Positions 276 through 26,100 of a stretch of 32,368 nucleotides of DNA are shown piece after piece (the stretch's first letter is position 1; each line of letters starts with the position of its first letter). Below the pieces are notes generated by a model. The model was not told the origin of the DNA and searched no databases. It worked only from the letters and a program-made list of their open reading frames with translations. The stretch spans positions 1 to 32,368 of the forward strand of contig JADHWA010000005.1 in the NCBI GenBank assembly GCA_016783715.1. Reading direction: 5' to 3'. Source of the DNA: Candidatus Omnitrophota bacterium (GTDB lineage Bacteria > Omnitrophota > Gorgyraeia > Gygaellales > Profunditerraquicolaceae). The translations under genes were made by a program, and so were the position numbers.

Positions 276-1982
276 ATGAACAAGGAAAACAGCCAGCTAA
301 TCGGCCAATTACTGGTTAGCGCAGACTTAATCAACCAGGAACAGCTGGAGAGCGGATTACGCCATCAGAAGAAAAATGGTGGTTTTATCTGCACTGCACT
401 CGTCAAGCTGGGTTTTGCCCCAGAAATTGAGGTTTTTAATCTTCTTTCGCGGCAATTAAATATACCCTATATCCGGTTAAAAGAGAAAAGAATAGATCCA
501 GAGGTAGTTAAAAAAGTCCCTGCCAAATTTGCCATCCACTATAAGATCATCCCGCTGGAATTCAAAGATAAGACCCTGAAGATCGCAATCAGCGACCCTC
601 TAGATATCCATACCCTTGACGATATAAAACTCCTTCTAGGGGTTGAGATTGAAGCAGTTTTAGCCACCGAAACTGAGATTTTATCGCTAATCAGGAAATG
701 CTATGGCGTGGGCGCAGATACCTTAGAGAGTATTGTGGCCAAAGAAAGTTCAACAAAGAAGCTGGAGGTCTCGGGCAGCAAGGTCGAGAAGATCGAGGAG
801 ATGGCAGAGGATGCCTCGATAATCAAGTTCGTCAACCAGATAATACGAGAAGCGATTAAAGACCGCGCCACCGACATACACCTTGAACCATTTCAGAAGG
901 AACTGCGTACCCGCTACAGAATCGACGGAGTCCTCTATGATATCAACATCCCTGAGACGATCCGCTACTTTCACTCCGCTATTGTCTCGCGTGTAAAGAT
1001 AATGGCTAACCTCGATATTGCCGAGCACCGCCTGCCACAGGACGGAAGAATCAAGATAAATGTCAATTCTAATGAGTTGGACCTGAGGGTCTCAGTCCTT
1101 CCTACGGCCTTCGGAGAAGCGGTACATATCAGAATCTTAAGCCCGCAATTCTTCCTGGAACTTAGGAAGTTGGGGCTATTACCCGAAGACCTTGAGATCA
1201 TCGCGGAGGTTATCAAGAAACCCCATGGAATAATTTTTGTCAGCGGACCGACCGGCAGCGGAAAATCCACCACCCTCTATGCCTGCTTAGAAAAGATTAA
1301 CTCCAGCGGTATAAAGATTATCACCATCGAAGACCCTATAGAATATCAGCTAAGGGGAATAAATCAAGTGCAGGTCATCCCTGCGATAGGGTTCAGCTTT
1401 GCCGGTGCCCTCAGGCACATGCTAAGGCATGACCCTGATGTGATGATGGTCGGAGAGGTCAGGGATTTCGAGACCGCGGAGATTGCGATCAGATCGGCCC
1501 TAACCGGGCATTTAGTTTTTTCGACGCTCCATACCAATGACGCTGCGGGTTCGGTCACCAGGCTCCTGGAGATGGGAATCGAGCCGTTCTTAGTATCCTC
1601 TTCCTTAGTATGCCTGGTTGCACAACGCCTGGTAAGGCTAATCTGCCCGAAATGCAAGAAGCCTGATAAATCAAGGAAAGATATTATAAGCCAGATTCGG
1701 GGTAGCTTAGATTTCGACACAAAACAGGCGCAAATTAGCGAAGGAGAGGGATGCCAGGAGTGTAGATTTACAGGATTCAAAGGACGTACCGGAATCTACG
1801 AGATCCTGCGTATCAGCCAGCCGATACGAGAACTGGTCTTAAAGGGAACTTCCAGCCAGCAGATTAAGCAGCAGGCGGTCTCCGAAGGCATGCGCACACT
1901 CAGGCATGACGGACTCCGAAAGGTGATCTCGGGACTTACCACCTATACCGAAGTAATGCGCGTAACTCAAGAAGACGAATAA
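276..1982 (+). CDS. gspE: Type II secretion / type IV pilus assembly ATPase GspE (PilB family)
   Basis: Walker A GPTGSGKSTT, EDPIEYQLRGINQVQV, HDPDVMMVGEVRD, CPKC...CQEC zinc motif; SD-like GAGGGGAAG upstream. Confidence 0.95.
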   Translation: MNKENSQLIGQLLVSADLINQEQLESGLRHQKKNGGFICTALVKLGFAPEIEVFNLLSRQLNIPYIRLKEKRIDPEVVKKVPAKFAIHYKIIPLEFKDKTLKIAISDPLDIHTLDDIKLLLGVEIEAVLATETEILSLIRKCYGVGADTLESIVAKESSTKKLEVSGSKVEKIEEMAEDASIIKFVNQIIREAIKDRATDIHLEPFQKELRTRYRIDGVLYDINIPETIRYFHSAIVSRVKIMANLDIAEHRLPQDGRIKINVNSNELDLRVSVLPTAFGEAVHIRILSPQFFLELRKLGLLPEDLEIIAEVIKKPHGIIFVSGPTGSGKSTTLYACLEKINSSGIKIITIEDPIEYQLRGINQVQVIPAIGFSFAGALRHMLRHDPDVMMVGEVRDFETAEIAIRSALTGHLVFSTLHTNDAAGSVTRLLEMGIEPFLVSSSLVCLVAQRLVRLICPKCKKPDKSRKDIISQIRGSLDFDTKQAQISEGEGCQECRFTGFKGRTGIYEILRISQPIRELVLKGTSSQQIKQQAVSEGMRTLRHDGLRKVISGLTTYTEVMRVTQEDE

Positions 1983-1996
1983 ATATAAATCCGACA

Positions 1997-3193
1997 ATGC
2001 CAAAATATAGCTATACAGCAAAGGCTGCTCCGCAGAGAGTATTAAAAGGCATCATTGAAACCGAGTCTGCCCAGGAAGCGATTAACAGGCTTAGTAAGAA
2101 AGGATACTATATCCTGTCACTTAATAGCCAGGAGGTTGCAGCTGAGCGCTCAAAATTATTCTTTCGCACGGCATCCCCCAGAGAAATTACCACCTTTACC
2201 CGCCAGATTGCCACATTGATTGAGTCAGGCCTGAACATTATCAACGCCCTGACGATTGTCTCAAATCAGGCGCACAATAAGCATCTAAAATCTGTCCTGC
2301 TTGATCTAATCGCCAGGATAAAAGACGGCTCTGCCTTCTCAGAGAGCCTGGCCGCACACAGGGATATCTTCAGTGCGCTTTACATAGCCCTTATTCGCAC
2401 CGGAGAGGCCAGCGGGAACCTGAGTATCTCGCTGCAAAGGATTGCTCAATTCCTGGAAGATGAGGAAGAGTTCAAAAATTCACTGCGCGCAAGCCTGATA
2501 TACCCGGGTTTTGTCATGTCAGTCGGGACACTTACCGTAATCGTCTTGCTGGCTTTCGTAATCCCGCGGCTTGTCTCTATGTTTGAAACTATGGGACAGA
2601 CTCTTCCGCTACCTACCCTGATGCTAATTAACTTTTCAGCACTATTACGCAAATATTGGTGGTTTATTCTATCATCAGCCGCAGTGCTCTTCTTTTTCTT
2701 GCGCAGGTTTTCCAAGGCTCCGCAGGGGAAGGCATATTTTGATTTGCTAAAACTAAAAATGCCGGTCGCCGGAAGAATTTTTCTAAAGGCTGAAGTCGGC
2801 CGCCTGATGCGGGCGCTATCTCTTTTGTCCTCCAGCGGAATCCCGATCATCACTGCCTTAGAGACTGCCACTAGCGTAGTGGGGAATCAGGTACTTTGCA
2901 GGGAGCTGGCGATATTCAAAGAGGAGATCACAAGGGGGGGCAGCCTTTCAGAGTGCTTCAGGGGTTCGAAGTTTTTCCCGGAATTTACCAGCAGCATCAT
3001 CGCAATCGGCGAAGAAACAGGAAGGCTTGAGAAATCTTTCCTGCGTATCGCCGATGACTACGAAACCGAGACCCAGCGTCTCCTAAAGTCGCTGGTCCGC
3101 CTGGTTGAGCCGGTTATAATCCTGATACTCGGGTTGATCGTAGGTTTTATCGTATTATCCATGCTTCTGCCGATATTCCAGATAACAGTTTAA
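1997..3193 (+). CDS. gspF: Type II secretion inner-membrane protein GspF
   Basis: FTRQIATLIESGLNIINAL and duplicated T2SSF-like domains with TM segments; follows gspE. Confidence 0.93.
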   Translation: MPKYSYTAKAAPQRVLKGIIETESAQEAINRLSKKGYYILSLNSQEVAAERSKLFFRTASPREITTFTRQIATLIESGLNIINALTIVSNQAHNKHLKSVLLDLIARIKDGSAFSESLAAHRDIFSALYIALIRTGEASGNLSISLQRIAQFLEDEEEFKNSLRASLIYPGFVMSVGTLTVIVLLAFVIPRLVSMFETMGQTLPLPTLMLINFSALLRKYWWFILSSAAVLFFFLRRFSKAPQGKAYFDLLKLKMPVAGRIFLKAEVGRLMRALSLLSSSGIPIITALETATSVVGNQVLCRELAIFKEEITRGGSLSECFRGSKFFPEFTSSIIAIGEETGRLEKSFLRIADDYETETQRLLKSLVRLVEPVIILILGLIVGFIVLSMLLPIFQITV

Positions 3194-3212
3194 ATTAGGG
3201 AGGAAAAGATCT

Positions 3213-3608
3213 ATGGATAGCTCGTGGCCAAAAAGATATGGTTTTACACTAATAGAACTAATGCTGGTTGTAATTATTATCGGTGTCTTAGCGGCAATTG
3301 TAACGCCTCGTTTCATCGGCCGTGACCAAGAAGCAAAGATCGCCGCCGCCAAAGCTAATATCACCAATATTTCGATTGGTTTAGATATGTTTGGGATGGA
3401 TATGGGCAGTTATCCTGATAGTCTTAGTGAACTGATGGTAGATCCCGGCTCCGATGATAAATGGAGAGGCCGATATCTGAATAAAGCCCCTGATAAGGAC
3501 CCCTGGGGTAACCCCTATATCTATGAACCGGAAACCGCCGAGGGCGGCTACAGACTTTGTTCGGAAGGTCCCGATAAGGAAGGCAGCTTAGATGATATCT
3601 GCAACTAA
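3213..3608 (+). CDS. gspG: Type II secretion major pseudopilin GspG
   Basis: Prepilin signal YGFTLIELMLVVIIIGVLAAIV; DPWGNPYIYE; GPDKEGSLDDI ending typical of GspG. Confidence 0.95.
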   Translation: MDSSWPKRYGFTLIELMLVVIIIGVLAAIVTPRFIGRDQEAKIAAAKANITNISIGLDMFGMDMGSYPDSLSELMVDPGSDDKWRGRYLNKAPDKDPWGNPYIYEPETAEGGYRLCSEGPDKEGSLDDICN

Positions 3609-4062
3609 AAGGCTCTCTCGCCGGCGGGGATTTACATTCATAGAGCTGATGGTGGTAATCATAATCATCACGGTATTAACCAGTATATCCGCCCCGCTTT
3701 TTAAGAAGACCTTCGCTAAGATCCAACTGGACCAGACACTCAGACAACTGCAGACATTTATCGGTTTCCTGCATCAGCGCTCGGTGATCGAAAGAAAGAT
3801 TATCTATCTTAAGGTGGATAACCAACAAAAGCAATACTGGGGCCAGATACACGATAGCCCGGCGCGCCTCCGGAGTTACTCCTTTCCTGAAAAATTTATC
3901 CTGGATGTAAAAAAAATTACAAACCCGCAGGATGAATCTATTCTATTCTACCCTGACGGGGCAATTGATGCGGTTACTATTGAGATATCGACACCTGAAG
4001 AGAAAAGCTTATCTATAACCACCGAAGGGGTCTATGGGGGTGCAAAGATTAAGGATGAGTAA
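3592..4062 (+). CDS. gspH: Type II secretion pseudopilin GspH-like
   Basis: Prepilin signal RRGFTFIELMVVIIIITVL; position in operon; overlaps gspG. Confidence 0.8.
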   Translation: MISATKRLSRRRGFTFIELMVVIIIITVLTSISAPLFKKTFAKIQLDQTLRQLQTFIGFLHQRSVIERKIIYLKVDNQQKQYWGQIHDSPARLRSYSFPEKFILDVKKITNPQDESILFYPDGAIDAVTIEISTPEEKSLSITTEGVYGGAKIKDE

Positions 4063-4411
4063 TAGAGGATTTTCATTATTAGAGCTAATCATAACCATCG
4101 CGATATTATCTATCGGGATCGTCTCTATCCTACAGACAATCTCCTTCTCGGGACAGGTGTGGCATAAAGCACAGGACTCAACCAGGGCAGTCTTTCTTGC
4201 ACAAGATATAATGCAGAAGGCTGATTTTGATGAATTAAGGGGAATGATCATCGAGGGGGTCCAAGAGGGTAAGACCAAGGGGCTTAACTGGAAATCTTAT
4301 ATAAGGCCCCTGGCTGAATCCGAACTATACCAGATGGATCTTGAAGTCGCCTGGGGCCAGCCGCCGATAGAAGATCAAATCAACATCACCACTTACCTGA
4401 GAGCAAGATGA
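4055..4411 (+). CDS. gspI: Type II secretion pseudopilin GspI-like (ORF track start 4034; ATG 4055 gives a conventional short leader)
   Basis: MSNRGFSLLELIITIAILSIG prepilin signal; operon position. Confidence 0.8.
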   Translation: MSNRGFSLLELIITIAILSIGIVSILQTISFSGQVWHKAQDSTRAVFLAQDIMQKADFDELRGMIIEGVQEGKTKGLNWKSYIRPLAESELYQMDLEVAWGQPPIEDQINITTYLRAR

Positions 4412-5025
4412 ACAAAACAAAGGGACTGACTCTACTTGAGCTGATTATCGCATCGGCAATATTCACTGTAGTTATGGCAGCTCTCTATACCAGCTTCTCA
4501 TCAGGGACATTTGGCACAAAGTCTATTGATGATTCAATAAAACTGACCGGCCGGGCACGATTAATTCTAGGGAAATTAAATTCTGACCTTATAAATTCTT
4601 TCGTCTTTAGCGAAGAGGAGGCGCGTTTTTCAGGCAGAGAGGATCAACTAACCTTTATGGCGCTTACAGATTCATTTATCGAAGACGCCTTTATCCGGGA
4701 ATACTCCTTAGTCTCTTACACCCAGGACCAGGAGCGCCTGCTTCGAGTCTGCCGGAAGAATAAGCAGGCCCTCAACCCGAACTCAGAGGTTACCCCTCAG
4801 GAATTATCCGCTGGCGCCCAGATTAAATTTGAATACGGATACTACTCCATAGCGGATGACCGAATTATCTTTAAAGACAGCTGGGCTACCGAAGGAACGG
4901 ATCCGCTACTCGAAGAAGAGAAGAATCCCCCATTAGCCGTTAAGGTAAACTTAACCCTGGGCAGGCAGAAGGCTCAGAGCTTCGAGAGAACCATATATAT
5001 TCCCTACACTCAATTAGTAAGATGA
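4408..5025 (+). CDS. gspJ: Type II secretion pseudopilin GspJ-like
   Basis: KGLTLLELIIASAIFTVVMAALY prepilin signal; ATGA-type overlap; operon position. Confidence 0.8.
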   Translation: MNKTKGLTLLELIIASAIFTVVMAALYTSFSSGTFGTKSIDDSIKLTGRARLILGKLNSDLINSFVFSEEEARFSGREDQLTFMALTDSFIEDAFIREYSLVSYTQDQERLLRVCRKNKQALNPNSEVTPQELSAGAQIKFEYGYYSIADDRIIFKDSWATEGTDPLLEEEKNPPLAVKVNLTLGRQKAQSFERTIYIPYTQLVR

Positions 5026-5999
5026 AGAAGAAAGCGCAGATATTAATTATCGCCCTCTGGATAATGGTCATATTAGCGGTTCTGGCGGTAAGTATCGGAT
5101 ATAGGGTCTCCCTTGCGCTACGCCTGGGTTCTTATCAAAGGGAAGACCTAAAATCCCTCTATCTGGCTAAATCAGGGGTAAATCAGGCTATAGTCGAGAT
5201 CAACCGGGACCTAACGCAGACTGACAGTTTCTCCGACAGTTGGGCAGAGAATGAGGAGGCTTTTAAAAGGATCGCCTTTAGCCAGGATTCCTCTGAATTT
5301 GCCTCTGTTTCTTATACAGATTCAAACGGAGAGGAGATATTCGGCGTGCTGGATGAAGAAAGGAAGATCAATATCAACACCGCCGCAGAAGAGTTGCTGG
5401 CAGTATTATTGGAAAAAGGCGGGATAACTGCGCAAGAAAGCAGGGATATCGCTTCAAATATACGTGCCTGGCGCAGTAACCTGGAGATTACTCCGGCAGA
5501 ATCACGAGATTACACTGCTCTGGGTTATGAGTGTAAGGGGGAGCCATTTACCAACTGCGCAGAGCTTACCATGGTAAAAGGAATCAACCAACAGCTATAT
5601 CGGGCAATAGAGGGAATCTTTACCGTTTTTGGAAACGGGGGCGTAAATATCAATACCGCAGAACCTGCAGCTTTAGAAGTGATTATTGCCAGCGCAATGA
5701 ATCAGGCCGGGATTAGCGATCAGGCGAAGCTTGAGGGCCTGCTAAGCGCGATACTCAGATATCGCCAGGATTACGGTCAATTTAACGAAGGAGACCTGGA
5801 TAGCCTGCTAAGAGTGCTGGATCTTGACCCGGCTGACTATGAACTGATCACTGTTGAACTCAGGAAGAATCTGGTTGTTGAATCGGATTTTTTCCGTATA
5901 ATATCTAAAGGAAGACTCGGCGTAGGCAAACCAACAAGACAAATTGACTGCGTATACGACCGCGAAATCAAAGAGTTGATATTCTGGCATGAAAGCTGA
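5022..5999 (+). CDS. gspK: Type II secretion minor pseudopilin GspK
   Basis: Hydrophobic N-terminus ILIIALWIMVILAVLAVSIGYR; INTAAEELL and ININTAEPAALEVI helix-hairpin-like repeats typical of GspK. Confidence 0.85.
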   Translation: MKKKAQILIIALWIMVILAVLAVSIGYRVSLALRLGSYQREDLKSLYLAKSGVNQAIVEINRDLTQTDSFSDSWAENEEAFKRIAFSQDSSEFASVSYTDSNGEEIFGVLDEERKININTAAEELLAVLLEKGGITAQESRDIASNIRAWRSNLEITPAESRDYTALGYECKGEPFTNCAELTMVKGINQQLYRAIEGIFTVFGNGGVNINTAEPAALEVIIASAMNQAGISDQAKLEGLLSAILRYRQDYGQFNEGDLDSLLRVLDLDPADYELITVELRKNLVVESDFFRIISKGRLGVGKPTRQIDCVYDREIKELIFWHES

Positions 6000-7426
6000 T
6001 GAAAAGGATAGCCGCTAATATAAAGAAGAACGGAATTTTTGTCCTGCAAGTTGAGGACCAGACTCTAAAGATCCTCAAGGCAGGCCCTAAGGGTGCATCG
6101 GTAACAGTCTCGGTACAAGAGGCGATCAAAATCTCAGGCGGCCTAGAAAATCCGGATATGGCTATTCAGGCAAAGATACTATTAAGTAATCTCGGCTACC
6201 GCAATCAGCCCCTAATCTTTTGCCTACCGCGAAAAAGTGCAACCTGCCACTACCTCAAGATCCCAAGCAAAAAGACCGAAGAAATAGAGAGCATGATTGC
6301 CTATCGGGCACCCAGACTTCTGCCGTATGAGATCAGCGAACTAGTCACCGGCTATGAGCTTATCCGTTCTGATAATCAGGGTTACTCTCACATAAACTTA
6401 AGCATTATCCACAGAAAGATCGTCGACAAATTAACAGAGCTTTTTAGCCAGCTTGGGGGAAAGAATATATTCTTCGCATTAAGCCCCTACGGGGTATCCA
6501 ACCTTTTCTTTTACGACAACCCCAAGAGTAAAGAATTAGCCATGCTTATCGATGCCGACCTAAACCGAATAGAGGTGTCAATTGTCCGGCAGGAGAAGCT
6601 GGTATTTAGCCGCTCCTTCATGACCCCTGATCTCTCAGGCCAGTCAGATAATTTATTTTTAGATGAAATCAAGAAAACCTGCGACTCATATAAAAAAGAG
6701 ACTGCAATAGAGTTGCCACAAAATTGCTATCTCTTCGCAGAGCAGGCGCTGGCGGCCAGGCTTACCGGGATACTGACTAAGGCTGGCATGAAAACAACAG
6801 GAGGCCAGCAGAGTAAGAGGATTATCTCTCAAACAGGAGAACTCGACAGCTTGCTAAATTCAAAAAACTCCTATTTCAACCTGCTGGGGCTGCCTCTTAT
6901 TCGCCTGCCGCAGTCGCTGAACTTACTCCCGCTTAATCTAAAGAATCAGATGCAAAAAGCCGATCGCCTCAAAGAAGTCTTAACTACGGGGCTTCTGGTA
7001 GTCCTGATCCTGGGGGTCTGGTTCTTGGCCGGCTTTAAAAACTATAAAAACAAACTACAGCATCTCTCAAGCATTGAGAGCCAACTTCAGGAGATCAGCA
7101 AAGAAGCCGCGCCATTAGAACGGATGGAGAGAAGGTTACGCATACTAAAAAAACAGGCCCAGGATACGACCCCGGTGATTGATTTTCTGTACGCAAGCTA
7201 CAAAAACATCCCTGAGGGGGTCTATCTGCGCAACCTCTCCTATGAAAACCAAGAGGTCCTGATCCTAAAAGGAGAAGCCCCGGAATTAAATAAAGTCTTC
7301 GAATACGTAAACCGGCTTGAGAAGTCTGAGGCTCTAAAGGGTTACGAGGCAGAGGTTAAACAGGCGACTAAAAAGCGAAGCGAGTCTTCTTTGGTCAGCT
7401 TCGAGATCGTCTGTCAGAAGAGATGA
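5999..7426 (+). CDS. gspL: GspL-like protein (PilM-like actin fold plus PilN-like TM/periplasmic part)
   Basis: N-terminal PilM-like region, single TM TTGLLVVLILGVWFLAGF, coiled coil; operon position. Confidence 0.75.
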   Translation: MKRIAANIKKNGIFVLQVEDQTLKILKAGPKGASVTVSVQEAIKISGGLENPDMAIQAKILLSNLGYRNQPLIFCLPRKSATCHYLKIPSKKTEEIESMIAYRAPRLLPYEISELVTGYELIRSDNQGYSHINLSIIHRKIVDKLTELFSQLGGKNIFFALSPYGVSNLFFYDNPKSKELAMLIDADLNRIEVSIVRQEKLVFSRSFMTPDLSGQSDNLFLDEIKKTCDSYKKETAIELPQNCYLFAEQALAARLTGILTKAGMKTTGGQQSKRIISQTGELDSLLNSKNSYFNLLGLPLIRLPQSLNLLPLNLKNQMQKADRLKEVLTTGLLVVLILGVWFLAGFKNYKNKLQHLSSIESQLQEISKEAAPLERMERRLRILKKQAQDTTPVIDFLYASYKNIPEGVYLRNLSYENQEVLILKGEAPELNKVFEYVNRLEKSEALKGYEAEVKQATKKRSESSLVSFEIVCQKR

Positions 7427-7956
7427 AAAAACTACTTACAAAAAGAGAAAGATTTTTTGTCTACATCACCGCCTCGGCGGTAATCTTTACTATCTCCTAT
7501 AATACGGTTATTGAGCCGCTCGTGGATAAAGACAGGGACCTCAACATAGAGATCAGCAGCAAGGAGATCAAATTAAAGAAATACAAGGAGCTTCTCGGGC
7601 AAGGCGATCAACTGCAGAAGATCTACAAAAAATACCTCTTCTCTGAGGGTAATCCCGCGGATATCCAGGATACTTTTTTGGGGGCTCTCAGAGAGCTTGA
7701 GAAACTGGCAGGAGCCTCTGGCGTTGTGATTCTGGATATCAGACCGGATCAAAGAAGAAAAGGCAAAGGTGAGTTAAGCGAGTCCACAATCGAGCTGAAA
7801 TCTGAGGGTACCCTGAAGAACTATCTAACCTTCATCTACAAGATAGAGAACACCCCGTCGCTTTTAAAGATTAATAAGTTGCAACTGGGCAGCAAGACAA
7901 ATTCAGAGCTTTTAGAAGGCCGCTTTACTATCGGCCAGATACTAATTTCTGACTAA
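7423..7956 (+). CDS. gspM: GspM/PilO-like protein
   Basis: N-terminal TM and periplasmic region; last gene of the gsp operon, overlaps gspL. Confidence 0.65.
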   Translation: MKKLLTKRERFFVYITASAVIFTISYNTVIEPLVDKDRDLNIEISSKEIKLKKYKELLGQGDQLQKIYKKYLFSEGNPADIQDTFLGALRELEKLAGASGVVILDIRPDQRRKGKGELSESTIELKSEGTLKNYLTFIYKIENTPSLLKINKLQLGSKTNSELLEGRFTIGQILISD

Positions 7957-21690: not shown

Positions 21691-22501
21691 AGTAATTGGA
21701 TTAGAGAAGGAACCCTTCTCAACCAGTCCCGACCCTCAGTTTTTCTATCATTCAGCCAGTCATCATACCGCCCTTAAACGTCTGGAGATCTCCCTGAGGC
21801 TGCGCCGCGGGTTAAATGTGATCTTAGGTGACGTAGGGACAGGCAAGACTACACTCTCACGCGTACTGCTGCAATCATTCAAGGAAGAACAAGACTTTGT
21901 CTTTCATATGATCCTTGACCCAAGCTTTAAATCAGAATTTCAATTTCTTTTGAGCCTGGTCAAGATGTTTAATATTACCCCGCAGTTTAAATCTACGCTG
22001 GATTTCAAGGAGGCGCTCCAGAAGTACCTATTTCAGGCGGGCGTGGAGGAGAATAAAACAATAGTCCTCTTAATTGATGAAGGACAGAAGATCACCACCG
22101 AAAACCTGGAAGTCCTAAGGACTCTATTAAATTTCGAGACTAATGAATCAAAGCTGCTGCAGGTAATTATTATGGCCCAGGTGGAGCTTCTGCCGAGAGT
22201 TAAGCGAATCCGTAATTTCTCAGACCGAATCGCTTTGAAATATACAATCAACCCCTTCGACGAAACAGAAACCAGAGAGATGATCGAATTCAGGCTAAGG
22301 GAGGCGGGTTTCCGAGAGCCGGGGGAGCTTTTTACGGATCAGGCGATACGCCTGATCTATCAACATACACAGGGCTATCCGCGCAGGATCTCTATGCTCT
22401 GTCATGATGCAATAGAGACTATCGTGATGAAGGAGCAGCCAAAGGTTGACGCAAAAATTATAGATTATTTAATCGCAGAAGAAGTAGGTGCCGGCATATG
22501 A
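21677..22501 (+). CDS. gspA: GspA/ExeA-like AAA ATPase
   Basis: YYKVIGLEKEPFSTSPDPQFFYHSASHHTAL, Walker A GDVGTGKTT, Walker B IVLLIDEGQ. Confidence 0.88.
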   Translation: MSYYKVIGLEKEPFSTSPDPQFFYHSASHHTALKRLEISLRLRRGLNVILGDVGTGKTTLSRVLLQSFKEEQDFVFHMILDPSFKSEFQFLLSLVKMFNITPQFKSTLDFKEALQKYLFQAGVEENKTIVLLIDEGQKITTENLEVLRTLLNFETNESKLLQVIIMAQVELLPRVKRIRNFSDRIALKYTINPFDETETREMIEFRLREAGFREPGELFTDQAIRLIYQHTQGYPRRISMLCHDAIETIVMKEQPKVDAKIIDYLIAEEVGAGI

Positions 22502-23133
22502 GAAAAGGTATCTCACCGGAAGAAAAGCTTTTAAACTTAATTAAGAACCAAAAGAAGAACCCAGGGCCCGGCATGGCAGGCGCCATAGAGATCAAAGGTA
22601 TTACCGGAGCCACCCCGGTGATTCGGGCTTCCGGGCAGATCGCCGAGTATATACCCAGGAGGTATTTCTCTCTTAAGCGCTTGCGAAAAATTTTCAGGCT
22701 GATCCTGGCGGTTTCATCGCTATATTTGCTATATACTTTTATAAATCCTGCGATCAACCTAAAGAAAACAGATACTACAGAGCCTCTTACGATACAGGCA
22801 AAGACTTCCAATATAGACCAGGATGATAATCTCAGGCCACTGGAGTTCTATCTTAAGGGAATTAGCGAAAAACAGATATTTGCCACCGCTGCAGCTGGCC
22901 TTGGCTCCTCCAGCACTGCCAAGAGCTTAAGCGACACAGATCTACTAAAGGAGATAAGTCTTGTGGGAATCATCGGAGGCGATGACCCGCAGGCGGCGAT
23001 AGAAGATAAAAAGATTCAGAAAACCTACTACCTAAAAAAGGGCCAATTCATACGGCAGTTCCAGATCGAAGATATTCAAGACGGAAAGGTTATCCTGGGT
23101 TACAGAGGGCAGAGTTTTGAATTTTATCTCTAA
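22498..23133 (+). CDS. GspC/PilP-like protein with single TM and homology-region-like domain
   Basis: TM segment LILAVSSLYLLYTFI; SLVGIIGGDDPQAAIEDKKIQKTYYLKKGQFI; precedes secretin. Confidence 0.6.
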   Translation: MRKGISPEEKLLNLIKNQKKNPGPGMAGAIEIKGITGATPVIRASGQIAEYIPRRYFSLKRLRKIFRLILAVSSLYLLYTFINPAINLKKTDTTEPLTIQAKTSNIDQDDNLRPLEFYLKGISEKQIFATAAAGLGSSSTAKSLSDTDLLKEISLVGIIGGDDPQAAIEDKKIQKTYYLKKGQFIRQFQIEDIQDGKVILGYRGQSFEFYL

Positions 23134-23166: not shown

Positions 23167-24999
23167 ATGATTAAGAAAGTACTACTGTTTACGATATCGT
23201 TGACTTTATTAATCTGTTTTGCCTACCCCGGACTTGCTCAAGAGCTTGCCCCTACGGCGGAAGAGAATGGCCAAATCTCCCTTGATATAAAGGGAATGGA
23301 TGTGGTGGATGTGCTGAAGATGCTGGCAAGTCGCTCGGGACTTAATATTGTTGTCGGCAAGAATGTCTCAGGAAGAGTAACCCTCTTCTTAAAAGATGTT
23401 AACATCTGGGATGCCTTTATAATTATCCTTCTCTCTAATGATCTTGCCTATGAAGAGAAGGGTGGCATTATCAACGTAATGACCCAGAGGGAATATGAGG
23501 CTTCCTACGGCAGGCGCTTCCAGGATAATAAGCAGGCAAAGATTGTCCAGCTTCAATACGCCAAGGCAACTGCCCTCTCTGTGGCACTGAATCAGATTAG
23601 GACTACTCAGGGAAAAGTAGTAGCCGATGAGACATCTAACACAATCGTAATTATTGATACCCTGGAGAAGATCAGGGAGATGGAAGAGTTTATAGCAAGC
23701 GCAGACCTCCCTCTTGAAGTCCGTGTATTTGACTTAAACTATGCGTCAGCAGAGCCCTTAAGTAAAAAGATAGAGGAGACGATTACCAAAGGCGCCGGGG
23801 CGATAAGAATAGACGAACGCACGAATAAAATAGTAGTTACGGATTACCCTGCTAAGCTCGATGAGATCTCAAAGATAATCGAGGCCTTTGACGAGAAGAC
23901 TCCACAGGTCTTGATTGACGCCCAACTTATCCAGGTAAACCCCTCCGATAAGCTGGAGATGGGGGTAGACTGGGACTACTGGCTTCAGAAATACTTTGAT
24001 ATCAAGGCCTCACTTGCCATAAACACCGCAAATACCTTATTAGTCAGCACCGCAACCAGCACCCCTACAAAAGAGGGGGAGTATAAGGCGGTACTTGATA
24101 TCTTGCGTACTATCGGCGATGTGAAAATACTCTCAAGCCCCAGGATCATGGTTCTGAATAACGAAGAGGCCAGGATACACGTAGGGACAAGGGACGCCTA
24201 TATTACCTCTACTACTTCACAGGCAGGCACCGGAACCACCGTCATCTCGCAAAGCGTCAACTTCGTGGATACCGGAATCCAGCTGCATGTAACTCCAACT
24301 ATCAGCCGAGACGGATTTGTAAAGATGAATATAAAGCCAGAAATTAGCGAATCTACGCGTACCGATATTAAATCCGAAGGTACCATAACTCAGGTCCCGA
24401 TCGTCTCCACCTCAGAAGCAGAAACCACGGTAATGGTAAAAGACGGGGTCACTATTATTATCGGCGGCTTAAGAAAAGATAAGAGAGAGAAGACGGTAAA
24501 AAAGATCCCCTTGTTAGGGGATCTTCCCGGCATAGGGTTCCTTTTTAGGAGCACCAGCGATAACGTTACCGCAACCGAGCTGGTAATTCTTATAACACCG
24601 CACATAATCAGCGGCGAACACCCGCTCACCGAATTTGCGCAGATTCCGCCAAAGGCCGGAGCAAGGGCAAAAATGGTCAAGGGCAAAATCATTACCGAAG
24701 AAATAGATACCCAGCCGAATATCAGCAATAGCGCATATCACAATATGATTGCCCAGAGGATAAAGAATAATACCGTCAGAAATACAAATAGTGGGCAAAT
24801 CAACGGCGATATAGAGATCTCCTTTACTCTGGATTCCAGGGGCCACCTCCTCGCAGACCCCGAAATCATCTCTGCGAGCAACCAACTACTCATCCTGCCT
24901 ACCCTAGAAAGCATCAGGGGAGCTGCGCCATTTCCTTCATTTCCTCCCGGACTTAATAAAACAGAGGAGAGATTCCAATTAACCCTGGAATACAAGTAA
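23167..24999 (+). CDS. gspD: Type II secretion secretin GspD with C-terminal TonB/TolA-like domain
   Basis: Signal peptide, N0/N1/N2 domains, VPIVSTSEAETTVMVKDGVTIIIGGL, IPLLGDLPGIGFLFRS, TELVILITPHII; C-terminal GDIEISFTLDSRGHLLADP...IRGAAPFPSFPPGL. Confidence 0.93.
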   Translation: MIKKVLLFTISLTLLICFAYPGLAQELAPTAEENGQISLDIKGMDVVDVLKMLASRSGLNIVVGKNVSGRVTLFLKDVNIWDAFIIILLSNDLAYEEKGGIINVMTQREYEASYGRRFQDNKQAKIVQLQYAKATALSVALNQIRTTQGKVVADETSNTIVIIDTLEKIREMEEFIASADLPLEVRVFDLNYASAEPLSKKIEETITKGAGAIRIDERTNKIVVTDYPAKLDEISKIIEAFDEKTPQVLIDAQLIQVNPSDKLEMGVDWDYWLQKYFDIKASLAINTANTLLVSTATSTPTKEGEYKAVLDILRTIGDVKILSSPRIMVLNNEEARIHVGTRDAYITSTTSQAGTGTTVISQSVNFVDTGIQLHVTPTISRDGFVKMNIKPEISESTRTDIKSEGTITQVPIVSTSEAETTVMVKDGVTIIIGGLRKDKREKTVKKIPLLGDLPGIGFLFRSTSDNVTATELVILITPHIISGEHPLTEFAQIPPKAGARAKMVKGKIITEEIDTQPNISNSAYHNMIAQRIKNNTVRNTNSGQINGDIEISFTLDSRGHLLADPEIISASNQLLILPTLESIRGAAPFPSFPPGLNKTEERFQLTLEYK

Positions 25000-25037: not shown

Positions 25038-25064
25038 GGGCAGGATTACCCCTGCCCTTTTCTT
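25038..25064 (+). terminator. Rho-independent terminator
   Basis: GGGCAGG-ATTACC-CCTGCCC followed by TTTTCTTT. Confidence 0.85.
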
Positions 25065-25092
25065 TGACATATTCAATATTGTGTGCTATATT
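25064..25092 (+). promoter_or_regulatory. Sigma70 promoter
   Basis: TTGACA (25064-25069), 17-nt spacer, TATATT (25087-25092). Confidence 0.7.
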
Positions 25093-25108
25093 AAACATGA
25101 GGGAAGCA

Positions 25109-25447
25109 ATGGATCTAAGAGAAAAGAGAAGATATTCCCGCGTAAAACTCAAAAGCCCATTACATTTTAACATCAGAGGCAGAGGGGATTTTAGCGATAC
25201 AGTATCGGAAGATATAAGTGCAGGCGGTATATGTTTTACAAATAATCAATATATTGCCCCTTTAACAAATCTGATGTTAGAATTAAAGCTTCTATCTCGA
25301 GTCCTGAACGCTATTGGAAGAGTAGTCTGGGTGAACCCGCTAGCGCATTCAGATAGGTACCGGATGGGGGTAGAGTTTGTTGAATTGGACCCACAGAAAA
25401 AACTGTATCTCTCTGAATACATTCTGATGCAGGAAAATATCCTTTAA
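25109..25447 (+). CDS. PilZ domain protein (start revised from 25064)
   Basis: MDLREKRRYSRVKLKSPLHF, DISAGG; SD-like GAGGGAAG; track start lies in the promoter. Confidence 0.8.
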   Translation: MDLREKRRYSRVKLKSPLHFNIRGRGDFSDTVSEDISAGGICFTNNQYIAPLTNLMLELKLLSRVLNAIGRVVWVNPLAHSDRYRMGVEFVELDPQKKLYLSEYILMQENIL

Positions 25448-25468
25448 CCAAAGAGAAAGGTAATATTC

Positions 25469-25717
25469 ATGGCAGATCAACAACAACCAGAGGCAAAACC
25501 AGCAGAGAAACCGGCAGCAGAGGCAAAACCAGCAGCTGAGGCAAAACCAGCAGCAAAACCAGTTGCACAACCAGCAGCAGAAGTAGAAAAGCAGACAAAT
25601 TGCCTGGGATGCAATAAACCCTTAATAAAAGGTAAGGTTTATTACCGTAACGGAAAATACTATTGCAACAAAAAGTGCTGGAAGAAGGCAATTGCGCCTA
25701 AGGAAGAGGAGAAATAA
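25469..25717 (+). CDS. Ala/Lys/Pro-repeat protein with C-terminal zinc-binding finger
   Basis: EAKPAAEAKPAAKP repeats then CLGCNKPLIKGKVYYRNGKYYCNKKCW. Confidence 0.75.
   Translation: MADQQQPEAKPAEKPAAEAKPAAEAKPAAKPVAQPAAEVEKQTNCLGCNKPLIKGKVYYRNGKYYCNKKCWKKAIAPKEEEK
25491..25581 (+). repeat. Degenerate tandem repeat encoding EAKPA units
   Basis: Repeated GAGGCAAAACCAGCAG blocks. Confidence 0.75.
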
Positions 25718-26100
25718 TGGCCAGGACAAAGAAAGAAAAGAGAGAGCACCCTAGAATAGAGCATCGTCTTCCGGTCAAAATAGTCGCTAACGGTTACGAC
25801 TTCAGCACCGAGACACAAAATGTAAGCTGCTTCGGTGCATATTGCCGTATATCAAAATACGTGCCGCCATTCACCAGGGTAGCAGTCAAGTTAAACCTTC
25901 CGATCGCCACCGGAGGCGCAAAAAAAGTGTGCTCTTTCGAATGCAAGGGGGTAATCGTCAGGACCGAAGATGAGGCGGGTGGAGGCTTTAATATCGCCGT
26001 CTACTTCAACCGGATCCAGGATCCTCAAAGAAAAATTATCTCTAAATACGTTAACCAATTTATACCTCAGGAGCCTCCGTCCCGTCTAAAAGTCTCCTAA
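25717..26100 (+). CDS. PilZ domain protein
   Basis: KREHPRIEHRLPVKI (RxxxR) and NVSCFGAYC (NxSxxG). Confidence 0.8.
   Translation: MARTKKEKREHPRIEHRLPVKIVANGYDFSTETQNVSCFGAYCRISKYVPPFTRVAVKLNLPIATGGAKKVCSFECKGVIVRTEDEAGGGFNIAVYFNRIQDPQRKIISKYVNQFIPQEPPSRLKVS

Follow-up and report, generated by a model that had tools for sequence, protein, structure and literature searches.

We sought to determine whether the type II secretion system (T2SS) secretin encoded in a 32,368-nucleotide stretch of Candidatus Omnitrophota DNA (contig JADHWA010000005.1; hereafter the window) truly ends in a domain of the kind found at the C-terminus of TonB and TolA, which span the cell envelope to contact outer-membrane proteins, and what such a domain may do at the end of an outer-membrane channel. 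A sequence-only reading had placed the domain at 24724-24996 (residues 520-610) and had suggested a role in self-docking, gating or coupling to the outer membrane.

The protein is a secretin by its general profile, while its subfamily is less sharply defined (Table 1). Its score lies far above the cut-off of 27.5 bits for Pfam Secretin (PF00263), and stays below the curated cut-offs of both TIGR02517 (T2SS GspD equivalog, 351 bits) and TIGR02515 (T4P PilQ, 284 bits). Because the GspD and PilQ scores fall short in this way, the T2SS label is given on the basis of GspE-M in the same window. The N-terminus is a signal-peptide-like segment followed by the secretin domains, and the Secretin_N region forms two E-H-E-E-H repeats in a full-length single-chain model whose overall confidence is low (pTM 0.38). 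The core, the Secretin_N repeats and the T2SS gene neighbourhood are those of GspD and PilQ secretins. The window secretin differs from them in scoring below the curated cut-offs, in its TonB-type end, and in the S-domain: no match to a known S-domain family was found in it, and no pilotin gene was recognised next to it.

Table 1. Features of the secretin gene and its neighbourhood in the window
Feature	Coordinates	Strand	Evidence
Secretin gene, 610 aa, GspD/PilQ-like	23167..24999	+	Pfam Secretin 169.9 bits; NCBIfam PilQ 277.6, GspD 252
N0/STN-like domain, weak, aa 40-104	23284..23478	+	STN 19.7 bits, GspD_N0 18.2 bits, both below cut-off
Secretin_N repeats, about aa 121-247	23527..23907	+	Two Secretin_N stretches, 79.4 bits
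Secretin core, aa 313-481, C-terminal end TELVILITPHI	24103..24609	+	Pfam Secretin
Linker, aa 482-520, mostly disordered	24610..24726	+	pLDDT < 50 over aa 485-517
TonB/TolA-type C-terminal domain, aa 522-610	24730..24996	+	Profile, fold and tree evidence
GspB/GspC-like inner-membrane protein, 211 aa, directly 5' of secretin	22498..23133	+	T2SSB E 0.004, T2SSC E 0.02, weak
ExeA/MshM-like AAA ATPase, 274 aa	21677..22501	+	AAA_22 64.5 bits; TIGR03015 171 bits
T2SS cluster: GspE, F, G, three more N-methylated pseudopilins, K, PilN-type GspL, GspM-position protein	276..7956	+	Pfam

The gene order around the GspB/GspC-like protein and the secretin is the same in relatives L063, L100 and L146, and likewise in a Candidatus Omnitrophota genome, the only close named relative obtained from the genome-collection scan. 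The GspM-position protein (177 aa) has no Pfam match. The ExeA-like ATPase consists of an AAA domain only, and no peptidoglycan-binding domain was matched in it. The genes directly 3' of the secretin (25064-26097) encode two proteins with PilZ domains and a small zinc-finger-like protein rich in Ala, Lys and Pro. In L063, the tail-bearing GspD is followed shortly by a large exported protein (L063:5616-9041) that has FN3-like repeats and, by eye, resembles peptidase C25 (gingipain); it is a possible T2SS substrate.

The identity of the C-terminal domain was assessed from profiles, orthologs and the predicted fold. Pfam TonB_C (PF03544) matches residues 544-610 of the window secretin with 22.6 bits (E 1.4e-4), just below the gathering cut-off of 24.6, and the domain is therefore called TonB/TolA-type here rather than a member of Pfam TonB_C. 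This score alone is not decisive, and the 12 ortholog tails settle the identity: with the window tail included, TonB_2 matches 13/13 and TonB_C 12/13, with a best E value of 3.4e-9. The isolated window tail also matches TonB_2, at about residues 522-606. In the PDB, the tail profile matches the C-terminal domain of Helicobacter pylori TonB (E 1.3e-6), the nearest solved structure. An AlphaFold2 model from 13 sequences has the order helix, two strands, helix, strand that defines the TonB_C fold, with pLDDT > 90 over most of the domain, and the top Foldseek matches of this model in the PDB are the C-terminal domains of TonB, HasB and TolA (best E 2.1e-4, probability 1.00). In profile, fold and order of strands, the domain agrees with the TonB/TolA/HasB C-terminal domain (PF03544, PF13103, TIGR01352). 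The known domains sit on inner-membrane-anchored proteins, whereas this one is the C-terminus of an outer-membrane secretin; the Tyr-Pro motif is also absent from the GspD tails. The TonB/TolA-type domain at the C-terminus of the window T2SS secretin is genuine, and the sequence-only reading had identified it correctly and with the right coordinates. The two outcomes it had named as speaking against the claim, no profile match and a different fold, were examined, and neither holds.

Next, we asked how far the tail is kept. The closest orthologs in 40 relatives end in this tail as well; two close orthologs, L010 and L013, stop cleanly before it and share with the window secretin a linker stretch of the form GE..L.EF....P..GA..KM.KGKII. 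When 128 genomes of the order were searched with the tail profile and the reading frames of the matches were checked for a secretin core, 30 distinct tail-bearing GspD-type secretins were confirmed. In 18 aligned GspD-type sequences, the tail residues Y, G, F, G, P, PF and F are invariant. The dN/dS of the tail is 0.14-0.44 in two close pairs, which indicates purifying selection, looser than on the core. In the GspD orthologs L055 and L076, an in-frame TAA lies just before the tail domain or early in it. Since L010 and L013 have no tail and L055 and L076 carry stop codons, the tail is dispensable in some lineages. These losses and stops, and the faster evolution of the tail than of the core, would fit a tail that was acquired neutrally or is decaying and has no function of its own. 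We regard this as very improbable, for the domain has been kept in the 30 distinct GspD-type secretins counted above, shows invariant residues in the 18 aligned and purifying selection in the close pairs, and recurs on channel families that are unrelated to one another. Secretins of the phylum that have no such tail (L017, L019, L029 and others) often show a disordered-looking stretch and then, at the very end, a short motif such as MKGIKKY or LKGIKEF, possibly a pilotin-binding peptide.

The same domain is found on a second class of secretin. The other secretin of the window genome is of the Tad (CpaC/RcpA) type, adjoins RcpC/CpaB and CpaE-like genes, and scores 50.4 bits with TonB_C and 48.6 bits with TIGR01352, both well above cut-off; the PF03544 cut-off is also passed by L067, L104, L107, L108, L119 and L122. 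Within Omnitrophota, the domain was verified in 30 Tad (RcpA/CpaC) and other-type secretins, besides the 30 of GspD type. In most secretins of both groups the tail reaches to 0-3 residues from the protein C-terminus, and across tail-bearing secretins the linker between core and tail measures 21-199 residues. Searched phylum-wide, the Tad tail had matches in 247/285 genomes, many of them TonBs; 20 loci fetched from these matches comprised 18 tail-bearing secretins, one TolC-family protein and one GDSL lipase. A GDSL-lipase-like protein at L123:1-1992 has the TonB-type domain at its C-terminus. The Tad-type secretins L108:875-3196 and L119:1-2871 (minus strand) have two such domains in tandem at the C-terminus. 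A tblastn search of 72,556 plasmids with the Tad secretin of the window genome returned 1,044 records and no place covering 80% of the query, a weak hint that Tad secretins encoded on plasmids are without the domain.

Channels of the TolC family carry it as well. In 10 genomes (L078, L154-L161 and L173; L120 holds the same protein as L154), a TolC-family outer-membrane efflux protein has TonB_C at its mature N-terminus, as in L154:838-2679 (minus strand), L155-L161, L173:916-2793 and L078:1529-2626. Sister proteins have AMIN (L162, L164, L168) or TPR (L163) in the same N-terminal slot. In Omnitrophota, the phylum compared here, it is a lineage-wide habit to equip multimeric outer-membrane channels with a TonB-type domain at their periplasmic end, and the window secretin is one case of it.

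In a tree of the domain, the 30 GspD tails form one clade (support 99), the main Tad tails another (95), and a third (95) unites one group of C-terminal domains from TonBs of Omnitrophota. The GspD and Tad tail clades are separate and lie near different TonB groups. The domain may have been acquired several times, or once and then moved, as the AU test does not reject a tree in which all secretin tails group together (p 0.63-0.64). Most Tad tails keep the Tyr-Pro motif that the aligned GspD tails lack, and the GspD tails may therefore bind in a different mode.

Identity, fold, conservation and recurrence of the domain are shown by these data; we then turned to its role. The N0 domain lies at the far, inner-membrane end of the secretin vestibule. 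Under self-docking or gating, the tail would bind the STN-fold N0 of its own or a neighbouring subunit, as TonB engages TonB-dependent receptors, and the window secretin does have a weak N0/STN match. Several observations make such docking in cis quite unlikely. The scanned Tad-type secretins have T2SS-T3SS_pil_N, a TonB_C match stronger than that of the window secretin and no Pfam match to STN or N0, and the TolC-type ducts likewise bear the domain without a recognised N0/STN. Some linkers are also very short: those of Tad-type secretins go down to 21 residues, estimated as too short to reach the N0 ring, and that of the window secretin, which is disordered, has 36. In favour of an N0 target, N0 resembles the signalling domain of FpvA, and the TonB-type proteins ExeB and TonB3 have been proposed as N0 binders (PMC4098917, PMC5285504). 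Docking on N0 in trans is a possibility, since others propose a TonB-type partner on N0 for ExeB-ExeD (PMC4098917) and TonB3-PilQ (PMC5285504). Of the roles first suggested for the tail, coupling or docking at the outer membrane fits the evidence, and self-docking on its own N0 is disfavoured by the Tad secretins, the TolC ducts and the short linkers.

A second alternative is energy coupling, in which a Ton motor (ExbB-ExbD) or a heterodimer with TonB would pull on the secretin and make secretion or assembly dependent on the proton-motive force. One profile matches both the tail domains and Omnitrophota TonBs, and type IV pili of Pseudomonas aeruginosa need the Ton-like complex PocAB-TonB3 (PMC5285504). 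A relative has an ExbB-ExbD-TonB-TonB cluster (L101:1-2264), and a TonB gene stands two genes from a tail-bearing GspD in L100:2439-5736 and about 8 kb away in L088:1166-12049. Within the L101 cluster, the first TonB C-terminal domain resembles the Tad secretin tails and the second the GspD tails. In L100 and L088, a CobO-like gene lies between the TonB gene and the tail-bearing GspD, and in L088 the TonB gene is accompanied by a TonB-dependent receptor. Against coupling, the C-terminal domain of TonB normally grips the outer-membrane target and is not the end that receives force, and ExbB and ExbD were not found in the window genome, although that genome is 65% complete. A TonB/TolA energy transducer has an N-terminal inner-membrane helix, a disordered spacer and coupling to ExbB-ExbD or TolQ-TolR; the window secretin does not have this build, and in particular lacks an inner-membrane anchor or ExbD-binding segment. 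In working, it resembles at most the C-terminal part of TonB. We hold energy coupling to be unlikely.

We infer instead that the tail is a docking module and not an energy transducer, since TonB's inner-membrane anchor is absent and the chain should emerge on the periplasmic side. Specifically, the tail would act in the periplasm beside the outer membrane, capturing a strand of a partner or the cell wall and so placing or anchoring the channel, a reading to which we give a probability of about 45%. Judging by known secretin structures, the chain would emerge past the secretin core on the periplasmic side of the outer membrane, the site of pilotin binding in other secretins. There a ring of 12-15 subunits would display as many TonB-type domains, each with an exposed edge strand. 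The C-terminal domains of TonB and TolA bind their targets by strand addition to their own sheet (PMC12204202), and the edge strand might similarly capture a strand of a candidate partner, be it a lipoprotein of the outer membrane, an assembly factor or a protein linked to the cell wall. Alternatively, the domain may bind the cell wall directly. In either case, delivery, positioning or anchoring of the secretin ring would need no classical pilotin tail. In P. aeruginosa, formation of the secretin requires the last four residues of RcpA, which are the binding site of the pilotin TadD (PMC10499894); the TonB-type domain occupies this same terminus, a pilotin-like position that fits docking. AMIN domains in PilQ bind peptidoglycan (PMC5285504), and the swap for AMIN or TPR in the sister ducts, together with the ExeA-like ATPase that has no matched peptidoglycan-binding domain, points to envelope anchoring or partner recruitment. 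Counted against docking are the lost or interrupted tails of L010, L013, L055 and L076, the lack of the Tyr-Pro motif in the GspD tails and the weaker selection on tail than on core. It is possible, though doubtful, that the TonB-type domains of GspD, Tad and TolC ducts all plug into one common envelope partner, a shared hub that docks or energises export. If true, parts of the Ton system would be used in reverse of their usual role in import.

Each known system offers part of this arrangement. RcpA-TadD is likewise a Tad secretin whose extreme C-terminus docks on an outer-membrane lipoprotein, but its docking site for the TPR pilotin is a stretch of four unstructured residues, whereas the RcpA-type proteins of Omnitrophota end in a folded TonB-type domain (PMC10499894). 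In ExeAB of Aeromonas and PocAB-TonB3 of Pseudomonas, a TonB-like protein is proposed to act on the secretin as a separate polypeptide in trans, whereas in Omnitrophota the two are fused (PMC4098917, PMC5285504). PilQ with AMIN is also a secretin with an added envelope-anchoring domain, but its domain is N-terminal and binds peptidoglycan, while that of Omnitrophota is C-terminal and of TonB type (PMC5285504). Literature searches of papers available without subscription found none that describes a secretin ending in a TonB-type domain, and the Omnitrophota survey paper discusses RcpA and contains neither the word 'secretin' nor 'TonB'. As far as we searched, it is the combination that is new; the parts were already known.

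Omnitrophota have been described as a phylum with many nanobacteria that are likely predators or parasites (PMC10066038). The action of TonB-like proteins on secretins was proposed from fold similarity and genetics for ExeB-ExeD (PMC4098917) and TonB3-PilQ (PMC5285504). A natural fusion, conserved in a phylum and repeated on secretins and TolC-type ducts, is independent gene-fusion evidence for a link between TonB and secretins, and the fused secretins are compact proteins that make this old idea directly testable. The finding also suggests that outer-membrane channels may be placed without a classical pilotin tail.
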